A stretch of 35,511 nt of DNA from a virus, in IMG/VR virus record IMGVR_UViG_3300030380_005856, positions 1-35,511 of that record, one strand, 5' to 3'. A model generated the notes under the pieces. That model searched no databases and was not told the origin of the DNA. It saw only the letters and a list, made by a program, of their open reading frames with translations. Positions 1,943 to 33,178 of the stretch are shown in pieces. How positions within the stretch are numbered: position 1 is the stretch's first letter; each line of letters opens with the position of its first letter. The translations under genes and the position numbers were made by a program.

Positions 1943-2569
1943 ATGGAAAAAGAGAGGATTGAAGCAATTTTTAATGAATACCCATTTCCACACGTTATAA
2001 TTGAAAATTTTTATAATGAAGAGGAATTGAAGTTAATATGGCAAGAACTAGAGTTTTACACTCACCCCAATAAATTAGTTCCTGCAAAAGATTATGGTGG
2101 TATTGTTGGATCTACCAACGCACTTGCACTTCAATTAGATGGAATATACAGTAAAAGAAGAGAATTATCAAATATATTAACAGTCAATCGAAAATTATTT
2201 GATAAAGAATTATTAGATAGCATATCTGAAATAGGTGGTAGTTTTACTATTTTTAACAAGTCAAATGATGATATTACTAAAGTTAGATACTACCATAATG
2301 GCGAATATTATAAACCACATACTGATTACACCATGAACTTCTTAGCATTTTCTTATTTCTTTAGAGAACCTAAAAAATTTACTGGTGGTAATCTAGTTTT
2401 CCCAAAATACAAATACGAATACGAATGTGGAAATAACTCTACAATTATAATGCCTGGTTGGGTTGAACATGGTGTATCAGAGGTTTGTATCGATGATTCT
2501 GATTACTATGATGGTTGGGGTAGATATGCAATTACTAGTTTTATTAATTGTAAAGATAAAGGGTCTTAA
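1943..2569 (+). CDS. Prolyl-4-hydroxylase-like 2OG-Fe(II) oxygenase
   Basis: The 208-residue protein has the complete iron and cosubstrate set of the 2OG-Fe(II) oxygenase superfamily: HTD at residues 126-128, distal His176 in PGWVEHGV and Arg194 in GRYAITSF. The core segment FTGGNLVFP lies between them. This pattern resembles prolyl-4-hydroxylase-type enzymes. The ORF could start at 1931, but the promoter at 1895-1922 and the AGAGG upstream favour ATG 1943. It is the only plus-strand gene in the left part and lies between the halogenase pair and the fibre genes. Its stop codon overlaps the stop of the adhesin gene from the other strand. It may hydroxylate a protein, but no substrate is shown by the sequence. 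Confidence 0.75.
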   Translation: MEKERIEAIFNEYPFPHVIIENFYNEEELKLIWQELEFYTHPNKLVPAKDYGGIVGSTNALALQLDGIYSKRRELSNILTVNRKLFDKELLDSISEIGGSFTIFNKSNDDITKVRYYHNGEYYKPHTDYTMNFLAFSYFFREPKKFTGGNLVFPKYKYEYECGNNSTIIMPGWVEHGVSEVCIDDSDYYDGWGRYAITSFINCKDKGS

Positions 2570-3678
2570 GATACACCTGTGGCATTTGTATCGCCAGTTA
2601 TATTCGGACTTCCAATTAAATTAAATGAAATACCACTGCCTTTTCTAATTGCTGCACCATTTGCACCACCACCTCCACCACCAGATGTGCTAGGGTCTTC
2701 ATGACTTGACCCACTTAAGAAACCATTTTGTCCAGTATCAGCACTGGTATCACCTGTGTGTCCACCTTCACCACCAGTTCCTCCATTTATAGTTGCAGCT
2801 CCACGACTTGTAACTTCTGCTCCCTCTCCTCCTTCTCCTGGTTGTTCATGATCTCCAGCAGTTCCATTTCTTCCTTCAGGACTTGTACCACCACTTCCAC
2901 CTGGTAATCCTTGTCCACCGCCACCGCCACCGCCACCAGCTTTTACCTCTGGTCCTCTTCCAGCACCTCTCCAATTTCCCTCTTTTTTTGTCTCTCCACC
3001 ACCACCAGCTCCTCCACCACCAAATCCACAAATAATAGCCCCACCCTCTGCAGTTTGTATATCTGTATCATCATAATCAATTCCTAATGCACTCGTGCCA
3101 CTCCCACCTGGTTGTCCCGCTCCAGATTCAACACCATTACCACCATTACCACCAGCTCCAATCACTGTGCCACCATCAACTTCAACTAAAACTTCTGTAC
3201 CAGTGTTCCAAGTTCCAGTTCTAAGAGCGACATTATTGACATTACCCTGTACAGAACCTATCAATTTTGTTACATGAATTATAACCTTCTTTCCATTTGT
3301 ATTAGATGGTTTGGGTCCATTAGTGCCAGTTGAACCACCGATTACAGCAAAATTTCCAGATGGATTTGATTGATTAAATTTATCATTTTTTGCATTAACA
3401 CGATTTTGATTTGCGGTATGTAGATCAATAATTATATTCTGTTTTGCATTAAAAAAATCACTAAATTTTATTTCTTGATTATCAACTGGAATATCACTGT
3501 TAGCACTTATACCGCATCCATCCCTTGACAAAGATACCTCAGTCAATGCTCCTATATTGAGATCATTCATTCTATAATCTCCAAGAGATCGTTTCACATT
3601 TTGACCGAACTCATTTTCAATCTCTGAAAAAGATAAAGAATTGGTTGGTGGATTACCACCTGCTGCCTTGATTGCCAT
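2566..3678 (-). CDS. Glycine-rich tail-fibre adhesin (gp38-like)
   Basis: The 370-residue protein has an N-terminal part with IPVDNQEIKFSDFFNA (about residues 63-78), a phrase common in structural proteins of marine T4-like phages, and a C-terminal half (about 170-350) dominated by glycine runs such as GGGGAGGGG and an eight-glycine stretch. This is the composition of the polyglycine tip of gp38 adhesins of T4-like phages such as S16, where glycine-rich strands pack as polyglycine II helices and loops contact the receptor. It is the last gene of the fibre operon and starts by TAATG overlap with the preceding fibre gene, as gp38 follows gp37 in T-even phages. It is the best candidate for the receptor-binding tip. 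Homology to gp38 is inferred from composition and position only. Confidence 0.6.
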   Translation of the reverse strand: MAIKAAGGNPPTNSLSFSEIENEFGQNVKRSLGDYRMNDLNIGALTEVSLSRDGCGISANSDIPVDNQEIKFSDFFNAKQNIIIDLHTANQNRVNAKNDKFNQSNPSGNFAVIGGSTGTNGPKPSNTNGKKVIIHVTKLIGSVQGNVNNVALRTGTWNTGTEVLVEVDGGTVIGAGGNGGNGVESGAGQPGGSGTSALGIDYDDTDIQTAEGGAIICGFGGGGAGGGGETKKEGNWRGAGRGPEVKAGGGGGGGGQGLPGGSGGTSPEGRNGTAGDHEQPGEGGEGAEVTSRGAATINGGTGGEGGHTGDTSADTGQNGFLSGSSHEDPSTSGGGGGGANGAAIRKGSGISFNLIGSPNITGDTNATGVS

Positions 3679-5627
3679 TATCCAGTTACCTCAACACTTG
3701 TGACAGTTTCCCAATTAGTTCCGTTAAAGAATTGTAATTTTCTTAATGTTGTATTGTATATCAATCCACCTCCTTCTGGACTATCAGCCTGTATAACTGC
3801 TGTGCTTCCAGCAGATACTTTTGGCAGCATGATAAATTTCTTAGATGGTTGAGATAAACCACCTGATACATCTAAAACTCCATCTGGTTGAGTAGATCCT
3901 ATACCAACTCTCTTAAATGTAGCATTTGCATTTAGACAATCTAAATCAACAGAGTCAGTATTAACTGTAGTATTGATACCAATTTTTCTAAATGATGATA
4001 TGCCAGATGTTGCATTAACATTACCTGTCAAATTACCTGTAACGTTTCCAGTAAGGTCAGATGTAATTGCACTAGTATTAAGTGAACCACTTAATGTTAA
4101 ATTACCACCTATTATTGCATTACCCGATACGTCAAAGTTTCCTCCAACAAAAGAATTAGATGTGACAGTACAAACTCCTGCTACAGTTAGTCTCTCTTGA
4201 GGTTGTGTAACACCAATACCAAGATTGCCTCCCTTAGTAAGAGTCATTAATCTTGTATTGTTAAATCCTTTTAACCAATGAAAATCTCCTGTAGCACCAC
4301 CAGGGTTGTTTCCACTCAATACATAATTAAAATTATCTAACCCATGATTGATTATGTCAAGTGATTGTGCTGAACTATATGGTGAACCTGAAGATACCAG
4401 ACCATATCTAAATTCTGCATTATTTGTATTTGCAACCGCTGGTTCTCTACCGACAGTAATACCTGCAACACCTGTATCACTTGATACCTGAATCTCAGCA
4501 TTACCAGACTTTCTCACCTGTATATCGTTTGCAGGAGCATCTGTGCCAACTCCAATCAAAGGTGAATTAAGTTCTGTTGTGGCGGTGATGATACCAGATG
4601 AAACAATATTACCTACATTATAGGTTTCTGTTCCTGTTCCAACTCTACCATCTGCTTCTTTATTGACTAACTCAAACCAAGCACCAGCGTGTGCATAATA
4701 TGCCTTTCCAAATGAATGAACGTGAGCAAATGCACCGTGATATGTGCCAGCAGAGGGTAGATCACTGTAATTATTATATAAGAATGGAATTACATTATTA
4801 GTTGCAGCACCTTCAATACGACCAGCAAAGGTTGTAACACCTGCAACACTCACATTATCTAAGTTTGCATGACCATCTACATCTAAATCTGTCACATTAA
4901 TATTAGGAGATCCAGATAAATTCGCAGCAGTGCCAGATGTATTTTGATTACCTGTAGTATTAACACCAGCTAAATTTATGTTTGCAGTGCCATCAAATGA
5001 CACACCACCAATTGTTCTTGCATTTTGTAATTGAGTTGCAGACGCAGCAACTCCAGTTAAGTTACCTGTTACATTACCTGTAAGATTGCCAGTAACATTT
5101 CCAGTCAAATTTCCTGAGAATGTAGTTGCAGTAATGATTCCTGATGCTTTTATATCACCGAAAGAACTAATACCTACACCTTTCTGTCCTGAGTTAACAT
5201 CATTTCCAACTTGTAAAGTGAATAATGCTGCTGTAGTTGCGATACCTACATTACCACCTGTGTTGTATATACTGCTTACCCCTGCACCAACGATTGTATC
5301 TTCCCACTGTGATGTTGGAAGATTTAATAGATTTATACCGTCACCAAAATATGTGATTATGCCTGAACTTGCTGTAACAATACCACTCTTTATACTTACA
5401 CCTGCACCAATAATCTCTGTGGGGTTTAATGTGGTTATTGTTGCAACACCTGCTTGAAGTGTAGGAGCACTCGATACACCAGATACAACTAAATTACCTC
5501 TGACATCAAGAGCCTCTGTCGGCACGGTAGTCCCGATACCAACCAAACCCGTAGCACTTACTTTCAGGTTGTCATCATCGACCTGAACACCATTACGGAA
5601 ATTAAAACTCTTCTTAATATTCGCCAT
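3678..5627 (-). CDS. Tail fibre protein with LTGNVTG repeats
   Basis: This 649-residue fibre-like protein starts MANIKKSFNFRNGVQVDDD and contains VGIGTTVPTEALDVRGN, a phrase repeated in variant form (VGIGSTQPDG) near residue 576 and in the 1081-residue fibre. Two blocks of alternating NLTGNVTG repeats lie near residues 173-193 and 525-535. A compact domain near 285-325 contains GTYHGAFAHVHSFGKAYYAH, and the C-terminus ends in a small FFNGTNWETV module. Such repeats form beta-structured shafts in trimeric fibres. It lies between the S74 fibre and the glycine-rich adhesin and may be the shaft carrying that adhesin; this is inferred from position. Confidence 0.7.
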   Translation of the reverse strand: MANIKKSFNFRNGVQVDDDNLKVSATGLVGIGTTVPTEALDVRGNLVVSGVSSAPTLQAGVATITTLNPTEIIGAGVSIKSGIVTASSGIITYFGDGINLLNLPTSQWEDTIVGAGVSSIYNTGGNVGIATTAALFTLQVGNDVNSGQKGVGISSFGDIKASGIITATTFSGNLTGNVTGNLTGNVTGNLTGVAASATQLQNARTIGGVSFDGTANINLAGVNTTGNQNTSGTAANLSGSPNINVTDLDVDGHANLDNVSVAGVTTFAGRIEGAATNNVIPFLYNNYSDLPSAGTYHGAFAHVHSFGKAYYAHAGAWFELVNKEADGRVGTGTETYNVGNIVSSGIITATTELNSPLIGVGTDAPANDIQVRKSGNAEIQVSSDTGVAGITVGREPAVANTNNAEFRYGLVSSGSPYSSAQSLDIINHGLDNFNYVLSGNNPGGATGDFHWLKGFNNTRLMTLTKGGNLGIGVTQPQERLTVAGVCTVTSNSFVGGNFDVSGNAIIGGNLTLSGSLNTSAITSDLTGNVTGNLTGNVNATSGISSFRKIGINTTVNTDSVDLDCLNANATFKRVGIGSTQPDGVLDVSGGLSQPSKKFIMLPKVSAGSTAVIQADSPEGGGLIYNTTLRKLQFFNGTNWETVTSVEVTG

Positions 5628-26728: not shown

Positions 26729-28059
26729 TTATCCTGTTTACCTTGAGTATCTCTTATCAGTTTTAATTTTGTATAAGACCCAGTTGATTCATAATAGTGG
26801 ACTAATTCTTTTATCATATATAGACCACTTGTTTCCTCATCTGGTTCTTTCTGTTTTTCTTCAGTGATCTTAACAAATTTACAATCAATCAGATTACCTG
26901 CAATTAGATTTGTGTTTAGAGGTATCGTAACAACAGTTTCAATAGTGAACATCATATTATATCTCATGGCAGATTGAGATAATGTTTCCATTGGATCAGC
27001 ATTTTTCTTCGCTGAATTTTTTTCTTCTTTTTCTAAAGTTCCAATATCCAACACTCCCGTTATCAATCTACTAGGAATATCATTTAATTGTTTACCAGTA
27101 TTTTTATCTTTTGGTAAATTTATCCCAAACTTTCTACCAAGATTGTTTGTATTTTCAGCTGCTTTACTAACTGTGAATGTTCCTTGAGTTTGAGAAGTAA
27201 ACGTCCCATTACGAGGATCATAAAATACCCTTTGAGATGCGTATGCACCTCTCTCTAAATTTTCAATTAAGTTTTGATTTTTATTTGTTTGATGAGATAT
27301 AATTCTGAAATCTTTATTTGGATCATCAACATCAACAATTCCTGGTTGAAATACATATGTATTACCAATAGGTTTTTGAGTGCATAATGCATCAACTGAT
27401 TTAAAGTGGAAACCTTTTCGTGATTCATAAAAGAAATATCCAGCAGTTGAACTTTTCCCACCTGCTCCACTCACCGCACTAGTGTTTGTGCTATCACCAC
27501 CTGGCACTGCTTTCGATGCTAACCATATCAATGTTGAGAATGGTTTTTTCATGTTACCTAAAAATTTGTAATCATTTTGTGTTGGATCAACTTCAACATT
27601 TTTTTTCGATGCAAGAAATTCTTCTACTATTTCAGTCACACTTGATGATATCTTACTTCCAAATCTCTTTCCTACTCTTGATGTTTCATTAGCAAGTGCT
27701 TCTCTTGATACACAATTAAGTGTGAATACCTCCCTCTCAGCATCAACTAATACATCTGTTACAGATGCAACATACAATTCATTTTCATTTTTTTCTGTGA
27801 ATTCTAAATCAGGACCACTTGGATTTACAATTTTCATATCAACTCGCTCACCACCTCTTAAGGGTAAACCTTGATATACAGATTTTTCGTTTATTACATT
27901 TCCAGTATTAATAACCAAAAACTTCGCACTTATATTTGGAGAAAAAACATCTTCAAAGTAACTCAATGCTACAACACCACCAGCGATATTGACAGTGTTT
28001 GCACCATCGGTTGATGTTACATTTATAAATTCAAAAATACTAGGATCTACTGCTGACAT
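26725..28059 (-). CDS. Baseplate hub protein gp27-like
   Basis: The 444-residue protein has the N-terminal pattern of tube-like hub proteins: VALSYFEDVFSPNISAKFLV (27-46), QGLPLRGGERVDMKI (63-77), and a later FTIETVVTIPLNTNLIAGNLIDCKF segment near 375-400 that looks like the second barrel. T4 gp27 (391 residues) forms the trimeric ring that holds gp5 and joins the tube. Here the gene directly precedes gp5, with ATGA overlap, and follows the tape-measure-like genes by TAATG. The middle (about 190-330) has charged linkers. I did not see a T4-specific signature, so the name rests on fold pattern and context. Confidence 0.65.
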   Translation of the reverse strand: MSAVDPSIFEFINVTSTDGANTVNIAGGVVALSYFEDVFSPNISAKFLVINTGNVINEKSVYQGLPLRGGERVDMKIVNPSGPDLEFTEKNENELYVASVTDVLVDAEREVFTLNCVSREALANETSRVGKRFGSKISSSVTEIVEEFLASKKNVEVDPTQNDYKFLGNMKKPFSTLIWLASKAVPGGDSTNTSAVSGAGGKSSTAGYFFYESRKGFHFKSVDALCTQKPIGNTYVFQPGIVDVDDPNKDFRIISHQTNKNQNLIENLERGAYASQRVFYDPRNGTFTSQTQGTFTVSKAAENTNNLGRKFGINLPKDKNTGKQLNDIPSRLITGVLDIGTLEKEEKNSAKKNADPMETLSQSAMRYNMMFTIETVVTIPLNTNLIAGNLIDCKFVKITEEKQKEPDEETSGLYMIKELVHYYESTGSYTKLKLIRDTQGKQDK

Positions 28060-29333
28060 TAATTTTTCTTAAGTGATAAACCTTGCAAACTTTTAAGAAC
28101 ATCACTTTTTGTAGTGCCTGTGACAATAATAGATGATTTACCTTTACCTACCATGCTAGTGCCTACATCCTGTGGTGCTTGTTTTTCAATGGTTATTACT
28201 GTTCTTTTCACCCTCCCTTTACGACTAATCATGTTTGTTCGTTCTCTAGTTACGGGTACGATGTTTGATGCAACATTAACATTCTTATTTACACTACTTA
28301 TTGATGCCTTTTTCTTCTTATCAGTAAGTAAAATATCTGTTGCTGATATTTCTTTGTTATCAGGTGGTGTTGGGATAATACCAGTTCCGTCATTATCTTT
28401 TGGTGGTTTGATTTTACGAATATCAGTATCATTTTTCATACCCTCAACTTCTTCATTATCCGTCATACTTTCAAATTCACCCAACTGTTCATCTGTTATG
28501 ACATCACCTTTTTCTTCAGGAACAAAAAGTTCCGCACCCTCTTCACCGACAATATATGGTTGACCTTTCTCTACAATGCCACCCTCTGCTCTTTTTTCAA
28601 TCTCAACATCTTCAAAACTCATGGTTGGTTGTATTTCCTGATCTACATCCTCAACATTTCCACCATCATCCATCATCTGATTCATTTCTGGAACTTTCCG
28701 AACATTTTCATCACGTTCAAATTCATTAATTATAATCCTAAAATCATTATCTGCCTTTAAAATATTATTGTTCGCCTGATTAATTGCATCATCAATATTT
28801 TTTTTATTTTTACCAAAATCAAACCCCTTGAAGATATTTAAAACAGTAGTAATTCCAGTGCCTATGGCAGTGAGAAAAAATTGTATTGTTTTTATAAAAG
28901 GATCCAATACTGAAATAACTTTTTTTATTTTTTTAATTATATCAGATGTTGCTTTAATAATTCTAGGTAGATTATTAACTACAAATCCAATCAACAAAAC
29001 TCCAAGAAAATCTAACAATCGACCAAGTAATCCTCTTGTACTCCTTGTTATGATATTACCCTGTTGTTTAGGTAATTTTTTAACATCTTGAGCCTCTAAC
29101 TCATCCTCTCGTTGTTTTCTTTTTATATTTTCTTGTCTCCTTCTAAAAAAATTATTATCCTTTGCAGTTAATTCTCTCTTGAATTTATTTCTCTGTCTTG
29201 TTTGTTTTAATATTTCAGTAGCAGTTCCTTTTGCCATTGATATACTTTTATTAAAAGATCTAACGGTATTCCGAATAGAATCAAAACTTATAGCAGATTT
29301 CCTAACTGCAGCTCTTCTTGATTTAACTGTCAT
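28059..29333 (-). CDS. Tape-measure-like protein, second part
   Basis: The 424-residue protein has a basic, coiled N-terminus (1-95), two hydrophobic segments (about 102-122 and 144-168), an acidic middle and the motif GGIVEKGQPYIVGEEGAELF (251-270), a phrase that recurs near the C-terminus of phage tape-measure proteins. The C-terminal 100 residues are basic and beta-prone. T4 has a single 590-residue tape measure, gp29. Here two overlapping genes (TAATG at 29333) with similar hydrophobic blocks lie where gp29 would be. Either the tape measure is split, or this one is a hub plug that enters the tail tube. Confidence refers to the tape-measure family assignment. Confidence 0.55.
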   Translation of the reverse strand: MTVKSRRAAVRKSAISFDSIRNTVRSFNKSISMAKGTATEILKQTRQRNKFKRELTAKDNNFFRRRQENIKRKQREDELEAQDVKKLPKQQGNIITRSTRGLLGRLLDFLGVLLIGFVVNNLPRIIKATSDIIKKIKKVISVLDPFIKTIQFFLTAIGTGITTVLNIFKGFDFGKNKKNIDDAINQANNNILKADNDFRIIINEFERDENVRKVPEMNQMMDDGGNVEDVDQEIQPTMSFEDVEIEKRAEGGIVEKGQPYIVGEEGAELFVPEEKGDVITDEQLGEFESMTDNEEVEGMKNDTDIRKIKPPKDNDGTGIIPTPPDNKEISATDILLTDKKKKASISSVNKNVNVASNIVPVTRERTNMISRKGRVKRTVITIEKQAPQDVGTSMVGKGKSSIIVTGTTKSDVLKSLQGLSLKKN

Positions 29334-30934
29334 TATCCACCAGCTCCATAACTACTTTGAGATAATAATTTATAGTCACCAATATTGCCAAAAGTTATAT
29401 TAGGAATATTATTTGATGTTGCTCCCATATTTGCTGCAACTTCTTTACCATTACCATCACTAAGAGGGAAGTTAATAAACTCTGTTTCTCCTTCTATATC
29501 CTGTGATATTAGATCTGCTGTTTGCTCAGTATTTGATTTTATTGGTTCGATGAGTCCTGCCTTTATTGCATCACTCTCTAACAATATATCATCCATTGTT
29601 AGAGTATCAATGTCTGTTTTATTTTCTTTTTTACCAAATATAAACCCTTTAATACTCTTATAAATGCCATCTACAAATGCTGGACCAAATATTCCAGCAG
29701 CTAGAACTAATAATCCATACAATGGTCGGGCACCAGGAAATGGAGCAAGTAATAATGGACTTAATTTAGCCGAAGCTATTGCAACAGAAGCTTGAAATGC
29801 ACCCATACTTACAATTGCTTCATCAAATGACTGACCTAATAACATTCCAATTATAACACCAATAATATTTTTACCCTTCAATGGATTAAAATTAAAATTT
29901 TTTAATATTTGTCTTTGTGTTAACACTTTAGTGGAACCCTGTCTAGATATATTAAGATTTTTACCAAAGAAATTTTTTAATCTCTGAAATAAACTTGTTT
30001 TAGGTTTTATATTCTTTGCTCCGTCAGTTATTAATTTCTGTTCATTTCCACCTGTAATTAATGGTAAATTTTTTCCACCAGATACTTTATCACCCCCAAG
30101 TATATTTTTTGAGACTTGATCTATAGCCACTCCTCCAACAAGACCACCCCCAAAAATCTTCCCAAGATTTTGTAATGCTTTACCACCAAATCCTGATAAA
30201 AAAGGTAGGAGTGGAGCTAACCTAGCTAATACTTTTCCTAATAATTGTGTTATACCCCTAAATGAATTTCTCAGTAATCCACCAAATGCAACTCTTCCAA
30301 CGGTTAAAGCAAATTTTCCAATTAAAGAAAATGTAGTCCCTAGTCCGATAGTAAGAGCTGTTATAGTTCCTCCTATTATTAATAAACCTTTTAGAAATTC
30401 TTCTTTTAATCTTTCTAATTTAAGTGTGTTGCCCTCCGCAAGTGATTGTAATAATTGAATTCCTTTACTTGTTAACCACCCACCTGCTAAAATTAAGAAG
30501 AATTTTTCTAAGGAAAATAATCCTGCTTGCACCTTTCCTGCAACTTTTTTTATGGGTTCGGTTAAAGAAAATCTTATTTTTTCTTCAAGAGCACTTTCTT
30601 TTCCTTCTCTTAATCCTTGTTCTGCTAATATTGCCTCTCTCTTTTGTTTTGCTGCTTCTCTCTGTTTTTCTAATGCTTCATTTAATGCTAAATTTTCCTT
30701 AATACCTGCCAAAGATATATTCAATGATGATATTTGTGTAGCGACTATCTCAAATCTTCTTGATAAAGTATTTAATGTAAGAGCATTTTGTTGAAGTAAA
30801 TTTGTTGTGATTGGATCAGATTGTTGAATTTGATTACCACGAGAGCGTGAATTAAAGATACTAGAAGATACACTTCTTCTAATACCTCGAAGACTTCCTG
30901 CTATTGGTGATGCTAAACTCTGTTCTTCATCCAT
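29333..30934 (-). CDS. Tape-measure-like protein, first part
   Basis: The 533-residue protein begins with a serine-rich region, a helical coiled coil (about 60-122, rich in K, E, Q and A), then hydrophobic helices (about 143-162, 182-206, 210-230) and a glycine- and leucine-rich C-terminal half (about 355-440). This composition, long helix plus membrane-active segments, fits tail tape measures that also help DNA cross the inner membrane. It directly follows the gp26 and gp51-like pair, the place of the tape-measure gene in the tail-assembly chaperone layout of other phages. The start overlaps the preceding ORF as ATGGATGA. No catalytic domain is seen. Confidence 0.55.
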   Translation of the reverse strand: MDEEQSLASPIAGSLRGIRRSVSSSIFNSRSRGNQIQQSDPITTNLLQQNALTLNTLSRRFEIVATQISSLNISLAGIKENLALNEALEKQREAAKQKREAILAEQGLREGKESALEEKIRFSLTEPIKKVAGKVQAGLFSLEKFFLILAGGWLTSKGIQLLQSLAEGNTLKLERLKEEFLKGLLIIGGTITALTIGLGTTFSLIGKFALTVGRVAFGGLLRNSFRGITQLLGKVLARLAPLLPFLSGFGGKALQNLGKIFGGGLVGGVAIDQVSKNILGGDKVSGGKNLPLITGGNEQKLITDGAKNIKPKTSLFQRLKNFFGKNLNISRQGSTKVLTQRQILKNFNFNPLKGKNIIGVIIGMLLGQSFDEAIVSMGAFQASVAIASAKLSPLLLAPFPGARPLYGLLVLAAGIFGPAFVDGIYKSIKGFIFGKKENKTDIDTLTMDDILLESDAIKAGLIEPIKSNTEQTADLISQDIEGETEFINFPLSDGNGKEVAANMGATSNNIPNITFGNIGDYKLLSQSSYGAGG

Positions 30935-31106
30935 TACGTTCTTGTTGTGCTTTTAAATTTTCCTCTTCAATATATTGTTGGAGTAGTGAAACATATATTT
31001 CTCTCTCCCACGGTATCATGTTTTCAAGCTCTGTTAAACTATATTTATGGTGCTGCATGAGGGCAAAGTTTAATTTATAGTATGACACCAAGTCTTCATG
31101 TGCCAT
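30927..31106 (-). CDS. Small gp51-like ORF; likely frameshift extension of gp26
   Basis: A 59-codon ORF fills the gap between gp26 and the tape-measure-like gene: MAHEDLVSYYKLNFALMQHH, then KYSLTELENMIPWEREIYVS and a charged end. Its ATG at 31106 lies two bases after the gp26 stop, in the -1 frame relative to gp26, and its stop overlaps the next start. The frame is open from the gp26 slippery site onward, so a -1 shift would give a gp26 fusion of about 299 residues (joined through RVS). The W-E-R-E and helical composition resemble the T part of G/GT tail-assembly chaperones. T4 gp51, a hub assembly factor, has 249 residues, so homology to it is only positional. Confidence 0.65.
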   Translation of the reverse strand: MAHEDLVSYYKLNFALMQHHKYSLTELENMIPWEREIYVSLLQQYIEEENLKAQQERNG

Positions 31107-31108
31107 AC

Positions 31109-31825
31109 TTACCCGAAAAAATTCTGTAACCCCTCAAGAACTATTTCATTTTCAACACCAGTATTTGGATTTTTGACTTTAACTTTATGAGAAAGTTTTG
31201 GCATTGTCTCAAAGAATATTTCAATCTCTTTAAATTGAGATGAATTTAATCCCTCTAAAAACTCAACTAATTCTTTCTTAGTGCAGTCTTCTTGAGTCCA
31301 TGATTCCTCTTCAGAATAAATCTGATCTACACATGATGCAATCAACTCAAATGTATCATCGACTTTCATTTCATCAACATTAAAATTTGTTTTTATAAAC
31401 TCATTTAATGATGGGTATCTCATTTTAAGTGTAAACTGATCGTCAAGTTTAATATCAGTTTTATGATTCTTAGATTTTTCTACTTTTATTGAATCAATGT
31501 TGATTGACATTGGAACTTGTGTTTTACCGTCGTCAGGACAAGTAACCATTACTTCAATCTGTTCACCTACAGACTTTCCACGAACATTGAGAAATAGATA
31601 TTCAATATCAAAGGTAGAGAGTTTTTCAACTTTAGTACCTCTGGTTAAAATACAATTAGATAAAATTGATTTAATTGAATTTGCAATTTGTTTTTGATCT
31701 TGTGATTCTAATGCTATGATTAAAATCTTCTCTTCTTTAACTAGGAATGGTCTATATTTAATTTTTCTACCAGATGAAGGTAGAACCAACTCATAAGTTG
31801 GTGTTGCAATTTTTGGTAAAGGCAT
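31109..31825 (-). CDS. 26: Baseplate hub / tail assembly protein gp26
   Basis: The 238-residue protein matches the T4 gp26 type: PLPKIATPTYELVLPSSGRK at the start, YRPFLVKEEKILIIALES (25-42), then FDIEYLFLNVRGKSVGEQIE (about 73-92) and a C-terminal helical part with LEGLNSSQFKEIEIFFETMP. T4 gp26 is a 208-residue hub assembly protein. A perfect TATAAATA late box precedes the gene. The last codons are AAT TTT TTC GGG TAA, which contain a slippery T TTT TTC heptamer. The gene lies between the tube-like gp54 and the tape-measure-like genes, the place of gpG in lambda-type layouts. Confidence 0.8.
   Translation of the reverse strand: MPLPKIATPTYELVLPSSGRKIKYRPFLVKEEKILIIALESQDQKQIANSIKSILSNCILTRGTKVEKLSTFDIEYLFLNVRGKSVGEQIEVMVTCPDDGKTQVPMSINIDSIKVEKSKNHKTDIKLDDQFTLKMRYPSLNEFIKTNFNVDEMKVDDTFELIASCVDQIYSEEESWTQEDCTKKELVEFLEGLNSSQFKEIEIFFETMPKLSHKVKVKNPNTGVENEIVLEGLQNFFG
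31115..31121 (-). promoter_or_regulatory. Slippery heptamer T TTT TTC, candidate -1 frameshift site
   Basis: On the minus strand the bases T (31121), TTT (31120-31118) and TTC (31117-31115) are in the X XXY YYZ register of the gp26 frame, two codons before its stop. Slipping back one base lets both phenylalanine tRNAs re-pair and leads through CGG GTA AGT into the ATG-led 59-residue ORF. Only a weak stem (GAC/GTC) is seen downstream. Confidence 0.65.
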
Positions 31826-31862: not shown

Positions 31863-32711
31863 TTAAGAGAATGGATTATTACCGTTACCACCAGATATAA
31901 CCTGACCTATACCCAAATTCTGACCTGTGAAGTTATTCACTGGTGAAAGAGATCCATTATATAAGTCAGCACTATTTTTTTGTTTACTATCTGATACATT
32001 TCCACTACTAAATACTGAGTTCAATTGCTCGAATGATAATGATGAACCATCTCTTGTAGGATTACCTCTTCCAAATATATCATTAAACGCTCTCATTAAA
32101 TTCCTAGCCAGTGATGTTGATTCACCACAAATATACCTATCAAAACTAAAAGTTACATTGGCTTTTAGAATGTTTGATCCTTGGTAGGAAACTTGTGTCG
32201 ATTGAAGTGACAATGGAAATAATCCAACAAATCTATACTCTAGAAATCTATTATAATCCCTCTCAAATTTTATTATACGTGTTTCATTCATCTTGTAATC
32301 AGATGGATAATTTAATTTAAAGTGATAACTATCTGATGTTGGATCTGAATTTGAACTTCCTGTAATATACTCAATATAATGCTCGAAAAACTTTAAGATC
32401 TTGTAATCATTATCAACATAAAATTCCAAATTAATTCTTGTAAAATTACGTGTATGTGCGAATCTCTCTATGACACCTTGAAAATCACCACGAGTATCAA
32501 CTGATGCAAGTGCACTGCCTGGTAAAACTGCACTACTACACAAGAGTCCAATATCATCTGCAATGAATCTGTCATTCACACCTTTTCTTCTTAAAAACGA
32601 ACGAACTGAACTTACAGGAAGAGCAAACTTAACAATATATTGTGATGTTTGTGCTACATTCTGTATTTTTGGCAAAAAATCTGATATTGGTCTTGGTCTT
32701 GGTGCTGGCAC
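31863..32711 (-). CDS. Tail-tube initiator gp54-like (GTG start)
   Basis: The 282-residue protein has the profile of tail-tube-like proteins (gp19, gp54, gp48 share the fold): QYIVKFALPVSSV (24-36), a beta stretch with PGSALASVDTRGDFQGVIER (64-83), INLEFYVDNDYKILKFFEHY (93-112) and QSTQVSYQGSNILKANVTFSF (about 170-190). The C-terminal 60 residues are low in structure. T4 gp54 (320 residues) joins the tube to the baseplate with gp48. Translation must begin at a GTG (32711) since no ATG lies upstream in frame before a stop codon. CTAAATA at 32743-32737 is a probable late promoter. It could instead be a tube paralogue with another role. Confidence 0.6.
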   Translation of the reverse strand: MPAPRPRPISDFLPKIQNVAQTSQYIVKFALPVSSVRSFLRRKGVNDRFIADDIGLLCSSAVLPGSALASVDTRGDFQGVIERFAHTRNFTRINLEFYVDNDYKILKFFEHYIEYITGSSNSDPTSDSYHFKLNYPSDYKMNETRIIKFERDYNRFLEYRFVGLFPLSLQSTQVSYQGSNILKANVTFSFDRYICGESTSLARNLMRAFNDIFGRGNPTRDGSSLSFEQLNSVFSSGNVSDSKQKNSADLYNGSLSPVNNFTGQNLGIGQVISGGNGNNPFS

Positions 32712-32743: not shown

Positions 32744-33178
32744 ATGTCTTACAAGGGAAAATACTATCCCTCTTTTCCACGAAAGTATAAAGGTGATCCA
32801 ACAAACATCATCTATAGATCGTTGTGGGAAAGAAAGTTTATGGTCTATTGTGATAAGAATGATAATATATTAGAATGGGCAAGTGAAGAAATCGCAATAC
32901 CATATCGTTCTCCAATTGATAATCGTGTGCATCGTTACTTTCCAGATTTTTATATGAAAGTCAAAGAAAGAAGTGGAAAGGTGAGAAGATATGTAATTGA
33001 AGTCAAACCAGCGAAGCAAACAAAACCACCAGTCAAACCAAAAAGGCAGACAAAAGGATATATTCGTGAGGCATATGAATATGCAAAGAACCAAGCAAAA
33101 TGGAAAATGGCACGGGAGTTCTGTGCTGATCGTCAGTGGGAGTTCAAGGTAGTTACAGAAAAAGAGTTAGGAATATGA
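32744..33178 (+). CDS. 4: Head-completion nuclease-like protein gp4
   Basis: The 144-residue protein matches the T4 gp4 (gp50) head-completion type, about 150 residues, with a PD-(D/E)xK nuclease-like arrangement: Glu29 (SLWERKF), Asp68 (RYFPDFYMKV) and Glu86-x-Lys88 (YVIEVKP). A basic stretch (90-105, KQTKPPVKPKRQ) may touch DNA. In T4, gp4 closes the filled head before tail joining. It lies between diverging tube and cap genes, so it is expressed with gp48 and gp53 on the plus strand. The next gene overlaps the stop as ATGA. Clear Shine-Dalgarno sequence before ATG is not seen. Confidence 0.8.
   Translation: MSYKGKYYPSFPRKYKGDPTNIIYRSLWERKFMVYCDKNDNILEWASEEIAIPYRSPIDNRVHRYFPDFYMKVKERSGKVRRYVIEVKPAKQTKPPVKPKRQTKGYIREAYEYAKNQAKWKMAREFCADRQWEFKVVTEKELGI

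Follow-up and report, generated by a model that had tools for sequence, protein, structure and literature searches.

Gene 26 of a marine T4-like phage and its −1-frame ORF very probably form a frameshifted tail assembly chaperone pair

Introduction

The end of gene 26 in a marine T4-like phage raises the question of whether this gene and a small ORF that overlaps its stop codon in the −1 frame are two separate genes, or whether they encode a short and a frameshifted long form of the same tail assembly chaperone. Several groups of T4-like phages reportedly use frameshifting for this purpose, and T4 itself is said to use separate genes, 26 and 51.

Among long-tailed phages, T4 was long regarded as the exception, reputedly without the otherwise conserved chaperone frameshift, and a 2016 review describes G-T frameshifting as widely conserved 'except T4'. 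The study by Vladimirov, Gautam & Davidson (2022, Virology 566:9–15) concerns, according to its title, the tail assembly chaperones of T4-like phages, and a later paper credits it with poly-T slippery sites in the TAC-N genes of these phages. A first-pass annotation of the DNA studied here had stated that T4 gp26 and gp51 were not described as a chaperone pair. This statement could not be upheld, since, as far as the title and the later credit indicate, the pair had already been proposed by Vladimirov et al. (2022), and for the same genes (26 and 51) as those of the pair considered here. Because that work, to the same extent, proposed a chaperone frameshift for T4-like phages, our main conclusion is already known. 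What is added here is strong evidence from conservation and a possible three-part signal, the stimulators of which may also be known already.

The 3′ end of gene 26 in the window

The window is the whole stretch of DNA that was analysed, a 35.5-kb IMG/VR virus record from an uncultivated marine contig. It comes from a marine T4-like phage, and the named phages closest to it are myoviruses of Prochlorococcus and Synechococcus, for example P-SSM2. Gene 26 (31109–31825, minus strand) encodes a protein of 238 aa that ends at a normal TAA stop and that we assign to TAC-N, the short form of the tail assembly chaperone, as it matched PF12322 over the full length of the profile (E=1.2e-76) and phrog_150 (E=1.1e-81). 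On the minus strand its 3′ end reads TTA CAG AAT TTT TTC GGG TAA, followed by gt ATG GCA CAT, and a slippery heptamer, T TTT TTC (31115–31121, minus strand), is therefore present in the 0-frame register X XXY YYZ, one codon before the stop. Read in the −1 frame, the same region becomes TTT TTT CGG GTA AGT ATG GCA, and this frame remains open down to a stop at position 30927. The −1-frame extension (30927–31115, minus strand) corresponds to the TAC-C domain, called gp51 in relatives, and matched phrog_634 (E=2.8e-28) as well as the tail of phrog_150. A stand-alone version of this ORF (30927–31106, minus strand; 59 aa) would start at the ATG located two bases past the gp26 stop, and its product would begin with MAHED. 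The predicted frameshift product, TAC-NC (30927–31825, minus strand), would be 299 aa long with the junction LQNFFRVSMAHED, and its predicted junction peptides are NPNTGVENEIVLEGLQNFFR (ending LQNFFR) and VSMAHEDLVSYYK. Inspection of the sequence thus bore out what the first-pass annotation had read at this site, namely a T TTT TTC heptamer in the correct register followed by GGG TAA, and a −1 shift into a 59-codon ORF, with its ATG two bases after the stop, to give a fusion of about 299 residues (299 when computed).

Heptamers of the X XXY YYZ type are common in this AT-rich genome, with 84 of them in frame among the 11,449 codons of the 25 genes in the window, and the odds of finding at least one of them among the final few codons of one gene or another are about 50:50, so that a single heptamer at a gene end is weak evidence by itself. 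The one at the end of gene 26 is the sole T TTT TTC in the window, and also the sole heptamer within the last six codons of any of its genes.

Conservation of the slippery site and the −1 frame

Statistics from a single genome leave room for a chance heptamer, and it was conservation among relatives that ruled chance out. Loci carrying gp26 were gathered from IMG/VR, by protein and profile scans that were also run with T4-type gp51, and from isolated phages, resulting in 204 distinct loci that fall into 69 clusters at 80 % identity. An in-frame T_TTT_TTN was found 0–2 codons ahead of the gp26 stop in 192 of these 204 loci, and exactly one codon ahead of it in 165; with the motif retained at the gene end in so many distinct loci, a chance occurrence could be excluded. 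In all heptamer loci where the end of the −1 frame lies within the locus, this frame was open for 55–67 codons. The gp26 stop itself varies (TAA in 85 loci, TAG in 80 and TGA in 28, counts that take in one chance heptamer), as does, freely, the codon between the heptamer and the stop, while the codon ahead of TTT TTN always ends in T, even though six different codons (AGT, TCT, AAT, GAT, GCT and ACT) for five amino acids are used there. Elsewhere in gp26, Phe-Phe pairs are encoded by TTT TTC in just 7 of 144 cases. In a subset of 149 sequences TTT TTC is invariant by selection of the sequences, and the unselected figure is that of 192 out of 204 for T_TTT_TTN.

The heptamer and the open −1 frame are kept across Kyanoviridae, Straboviridae (Vibrio and Aeromonas phages), Menderavirus, Pootjesviridae and others. 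The phages concerned include Vibrio phage nt-1, Aeromonas phage AsFcp_1, Stenotrophomonas phages Mendera and DLP6, Rhizobium phage RHph_I34, Ochrobactrum phage ORM_20, Methylophilales phage Melnitz-3, BUCT-ZZ01, S-CRM01 and Pseudoalteromonas phage XG4. The expectation that an alignment of relatives would reveal a conserved heptamer with an open −1 frame therefore held for the 192 loci, and failed in part for seven Ackermannviridae-type or related loci (L087, L188, L189, L190, L184, L185 and L182), in which a homologous −1 ORF is present behind T_TTC NNN TAA, with no canonical heptamer. Because these seven loci have the −1 ORF with just T_TTC, the mechanism of frameshifting is not uniform, and in this group the shift possibly occurs by single-tRNA slippage.

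Some further features of these loci were observed. A group resembling the Methylophilales phage (L089, L195–L211 and similar loci) mostly has T_TTT_TTT with the stop directly after it, and no nearby start codon in the −1 frame. In one locus (L192, near position 2749) the T run is one T shorter than in Mendera (L086) and the two ORFs are out of their usual register, a difference that is either a sequencing error or real variation. At the other end of the gene, the third codon of gp26 (31817–31819 in the window, minus strand) encodes Leu as TTA in 172 of 192 loci. At no other codon of the gene is synonymous conservation as strong, a feature that is perhaps tied to translation start.

Relationship to gp26 and gp51 of T4-type phages

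Tequatrovirus C40 carries gene 26 (208 aa) and gene 51 (250 aa) in divergent orientation. When a fusion of the window type was compared with T4-type gp51 using hhalign, the two aligned over columns 27–293 with a probability of 99.7 (E=1.2e-25; 0.1 for the reversed control), and the C-terminal domain alone aligned with a probability of 97.9. T4-type gp26 aligned with the first part of the fusion, and gp26 and gp51 of the T4 type were found to be paralogues (hhalign probability 99.4), PF12322 and phrog_150 spanning both proteins (4.2e-64 for gp26 and 2.4e-54 for gp51 in the same family). The small ORF of the window, moreover, directly matched the C-terminus of gp51 from Aeromonas T4-type phages. 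T4-type gp26 retains the Phe-Phe pair, encoded as TTC TTT, and has no slippery site. Since T4-type gp51 is the counterpart of the whole fusion and T4 gp26 that of the short form, T4 has two genes where the window phage would frameshift, and, on the evidence of these alignments, T4-type gp51 corresponds to this fusion encoded in a single frame.

Other arrangements were also found. In Slopekvirus KP15 (L180, positions 2501–3795), gp51 (TAC-NC) and gp26 (TAC-N) are in tandem, unlike the divergent pair of T4, while locus L059 (positions 3501–4394) carries a natural in-frame gp26-gp51 fusion of 297 aa, produced by a deletion of 2 nt at the heptamer. Frameshifting, in-frame fusion and separate genes are therefore several arrangements that yield the same pair of domains, providing a natural comparison of the ways to reach it: by frameshift, by in-frame fusion (L059) and by divergent or tandem genes (T4 and KP15, respectively). 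The fusion in L059 is either a true constitutive fusion or an assembly error.

The fold of the fusion was predicted with AlphaFold2 for L059 (pLDDT 91.5, pTM 0.86). Among the Foldseek PDB candidates, VIA-align 2 ranked the HK97 tail assembly chaperone (PDB 2ob9) first, with a Z of 7.4 over 84 residues at 3.6 Å, a value that, being below 8, falls in the range that can reflect a common arrangement. The second was 3fgx (Z 7.3), and the next candidates scored 4.7 and 3.7. The best-ranked fold corresponds to residues 1–86 of the model and covers the N-terminal third of the fusion only, with 6 % identity. Foldseek of the fusion model against the PDB gave no match below E 0.001, and a sequence search of solved structures with the gp26 or gp26/gp51 alignment gave nothing significant. 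The model of T4-type gp51 (pLDDT 90.0) presented a helix and strand order nearly the same as that of the fusion model; against 611 PDB candidates, among which the HK97 chaperone was possibly not included, its best Z was 4.6, to an unrelated protein.

The database names of these proteins, 'baseplate hub' and 'baseplate hub assembly catalyst', would agree with gp26 and gp51 being just structural or catalytic proteins of the hub, with an overlap that has no bearing on a chaperone role. We consider this very unlikely, given that both proteins are listed among the hub assembly chaperones in a review of T4, according to which gp51 is not part of the particle, that a tail assembly chaperone is found among the best-ranked solved folds, and that two forms with a common N-terminal domain are the pattern of chaperones.

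Alternative route to the small protein

The first-pass annotation had named reinitiation as the alternative to a frameshift: ribosomes would terminate at UAA and begin again at the ATG two bases further along, producing a separate gp51 of 59 aa, and the heptamer would be incidental. An ATG is located no more than 15 nt from the stop in 137 loci, and many cyanophage entries in GenBank give gp51 a gene of its own, yet 55 of the 192 loci have no ATG in the −1 frame within 15 nt of the stop, and in 33 loci there is no ATG, GTG or TTG in this frame for 35–74 nt, that is, into the conserved domain, so that a separate full-length gp51 cannot start there. In addition, where an ATG is present, the family lacks a suitably spaced Shine–Dalgarno sequence ahead of it (the duplex energy averages close to 0 at offsets 0–10), and the strong Shine–Dalgarno-like element that is present, GAGGGG in the window, is unable to start the small ORF because, at 23 nt from its ATG, it is too far away. 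Reinitiation also leaves unexplained why TTT TTN and the T before it are kept, and why T4-type gp51 and the protein of L059 are fusions. As the main route it was therefore rejected, on the loci that offer no usable start, and we judge it even less probable than a role restricted to the hub. In about 70 % of the loci, where an ATG comes right after the stop, some separate small protein may be made.

Putative stimulatory elements around the heptamer

The dnaX cassette of Escherichia coli consists of an internal Shine–Dalgarno-like sequence, a heptamer and a downstream hairpin. The same three parts are found at the end of gene 26 in the window, with a different heptamer, and the shifted product is a truncation in dnaX and an extension in the window.

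The first part, a putative stimulator, is the Shine–Dalgarno-like GAGGGG (31130–31135, minus strand), located 8 nt upstream of the heptamer, for which the duplex with the anti-Shine–Dalgarno sequence reaches −7.7 kcal/mol in the window. When this pairing was averaged over the 69 representatives, it dropped to −7.5 kcal/mol at one position upstream of the heptamer, and the element surpassed synonymous codon shuffles in 61 of the 69 (Wilcoxon p=8.6e-11, which is optimistic because the representatives are related). Glu at this site is encoded by GAG in 150 of 179 cases, as compared with 29 % elsewhere. Judged by these codon and pairing statistics, the upstream element is under selection.

The second putative stimulator is a hairpin, AGUAUGGCAC / GUGUCAUACU (31079–31109, minus strand), which starts 5 nt after the heptamer and has 10 bp and −12.4 kcal/mol. 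Folding downstream of the heptamer reached z = −1.9 at +12, versus −0.6 to +0.2 at other offsets, and at least 8 of the 10 pairs form in 117 of 164 loci. Covariation of the hairpin in 51 aligned sequences was above that of all 500 shuffles and of all slid controls. Among the 117 loci, the pair formed by columns 21 and 35 is UA in 66, AU in 21 and GC in 21, with approximately 11–13 parsimony changes on the tree. In the extension, column 21 falls on a wobble base, and changes in column 35, at the second position of a codon, switch the residue between Glu, Val and Ala; the wobble base of extension codon 2 and the middle base of a later codon thus vary together, and RNA pairing would constrain the choice of Val, Glu or Ala. 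With RNAalifold, no consensus structure was predicted for the mixed alignment of 51 sequences, and the hairpin claim therefore rests on the count for the named structure and on the clade of the window. The hairpin is a feature of this clade and is missing in divergent groups.

In the clade of the window the layout is thus dnaX-like, with GAGGG 8 bases upstream, the heptamer, and the covarying hairpin 5 bases downstream, suggesting a possible tuned RNA signal at the end of gp26. We lean towards the view that the marine T4-like clade sets its TAC-N:TAC-NC ratio by means of such a three-part cassette (GAGGR, T_TTT_TTC and a hairpin 5 nt downstream), in which RNA pairing would constrain a residue of the chaperone and the two putative stimulators would raise the efficiency of frameshifting. 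If true, the stimulated signal would be more complete than those usually described for tail chaperones, and it would have been lost where T4 swapped frameshifting for two genes.

The least probable explanation is transcriptional slippage on the T run, by which mRNAs of altered length would be made and some of them read into the −1 frame: runs of T6 to T8 occur, the Melnitz-like group has a T8 that spans the stop, and L192 is one T short of a near-identical relative (perhaps slippage or a sequencing error), yet 149 loci have a run of exactly T6 and then a C, which is short for polymerase slippage, and the X XXY YYZ register, the upstream Shine–Dalgarno-like element and the downstream covarying RNA hairpin are features of translation.

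Proposed mechanism

The frameshifted chaperone pair put forward in the first-pass annotation is supported by the conserved heptamer and −1 frame, by the loci without start codons and by the equivalence of T4-type gp51 to the whole fusion, and we assign a probability of about 0.93 to the conclusion that gp26 and the −1 ORF form such a pair, TAC-N and TAC-NC, through the following mechanism. Gene 26 would encode the short chaperone, TAC-N, and ribosomes reaching its end would probably be slowed by GAGGGG 8 bases before the heptamer and by the hairpin 5 bases after it. A minority of them would slip back one base on T_TTT_TTC (UUU UUC to UUU UUU), bypass the UAA and read on in the −1 frame, generating the 299-aa TAC-NC. 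A one-base slip where gene 26 ends, giving a longer protein for building the tail, is thus very probable, and we infer it, together with its frequency and the ratio of the two products, from the sequences compared here.

By analogy with gpG and gpGT of lambda, many copies of TAC-N and a few of TAC-NC would coat the tape measure, and the C-terminal extension of TAC-NC would recruit tail tube subunits before both forms leave; binding to the tape measure and the tube, and chaperone action on them, would follow the lambda model. As in lambda, the −1 shift would take place close to the 3′ end of the gene for the short chaperone, which follows a tail tube or tube-like gene, and the extended form would be the minor one. 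The slippery site of lambda gpG/gpGT differs from the heptamer of the window. Unlike lambda, the window phage has a contractile tail with a hub, and its downstream tape measure is a positional candidate.

In many records of marine T4-like phages, each half is annotated as a baseplate gene of its own, or the second half carries no annotation, and protein catalogues therefore miss TAC-NC. Several GenBank records of cyanophages, for example S-CAM1, ACG-2014d and ACG-2014h, lack a feature for the small ORF.

Neighbouring genes

The first-pass annotation had read the gene order as tail tube, gp26, small ORF and tape measure, of which the upstream part was confirmed. The gene preceding gp26 (31863–32711, minus strand) encodes a tail tube-like protein of 282 aa that matched PF23849, Phage_TTP_2 (E=1.5e-10), and phrog_45, tail tube (E=6.8e-33). 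The downstream part is positional: the next gene (29333–30934, minus strand; 533 aa), a tape-measure candidate by gene order, had no family match in the Pfam/PHROG-type profile searches, and the second gene downstream (424 aa) gave weak tape-measure matches only. Homology of these two genes to T4 gp29 was rejected (hhalign 0.2 and 1.0, with 0.3 and 0.3 for the reversed controls). The two genes after gp51 (28059–30934, minus strand) are conserved in the clade, belong to no recognisable family and may include the gene for the tape measure. Further upstream, on the plus strand (32744–33178), the window encodes a homologue of the head completion protein gp4 that matched the TnsA-like endonuclease N-terminal domain, PF08722 (E 9.8e-26).
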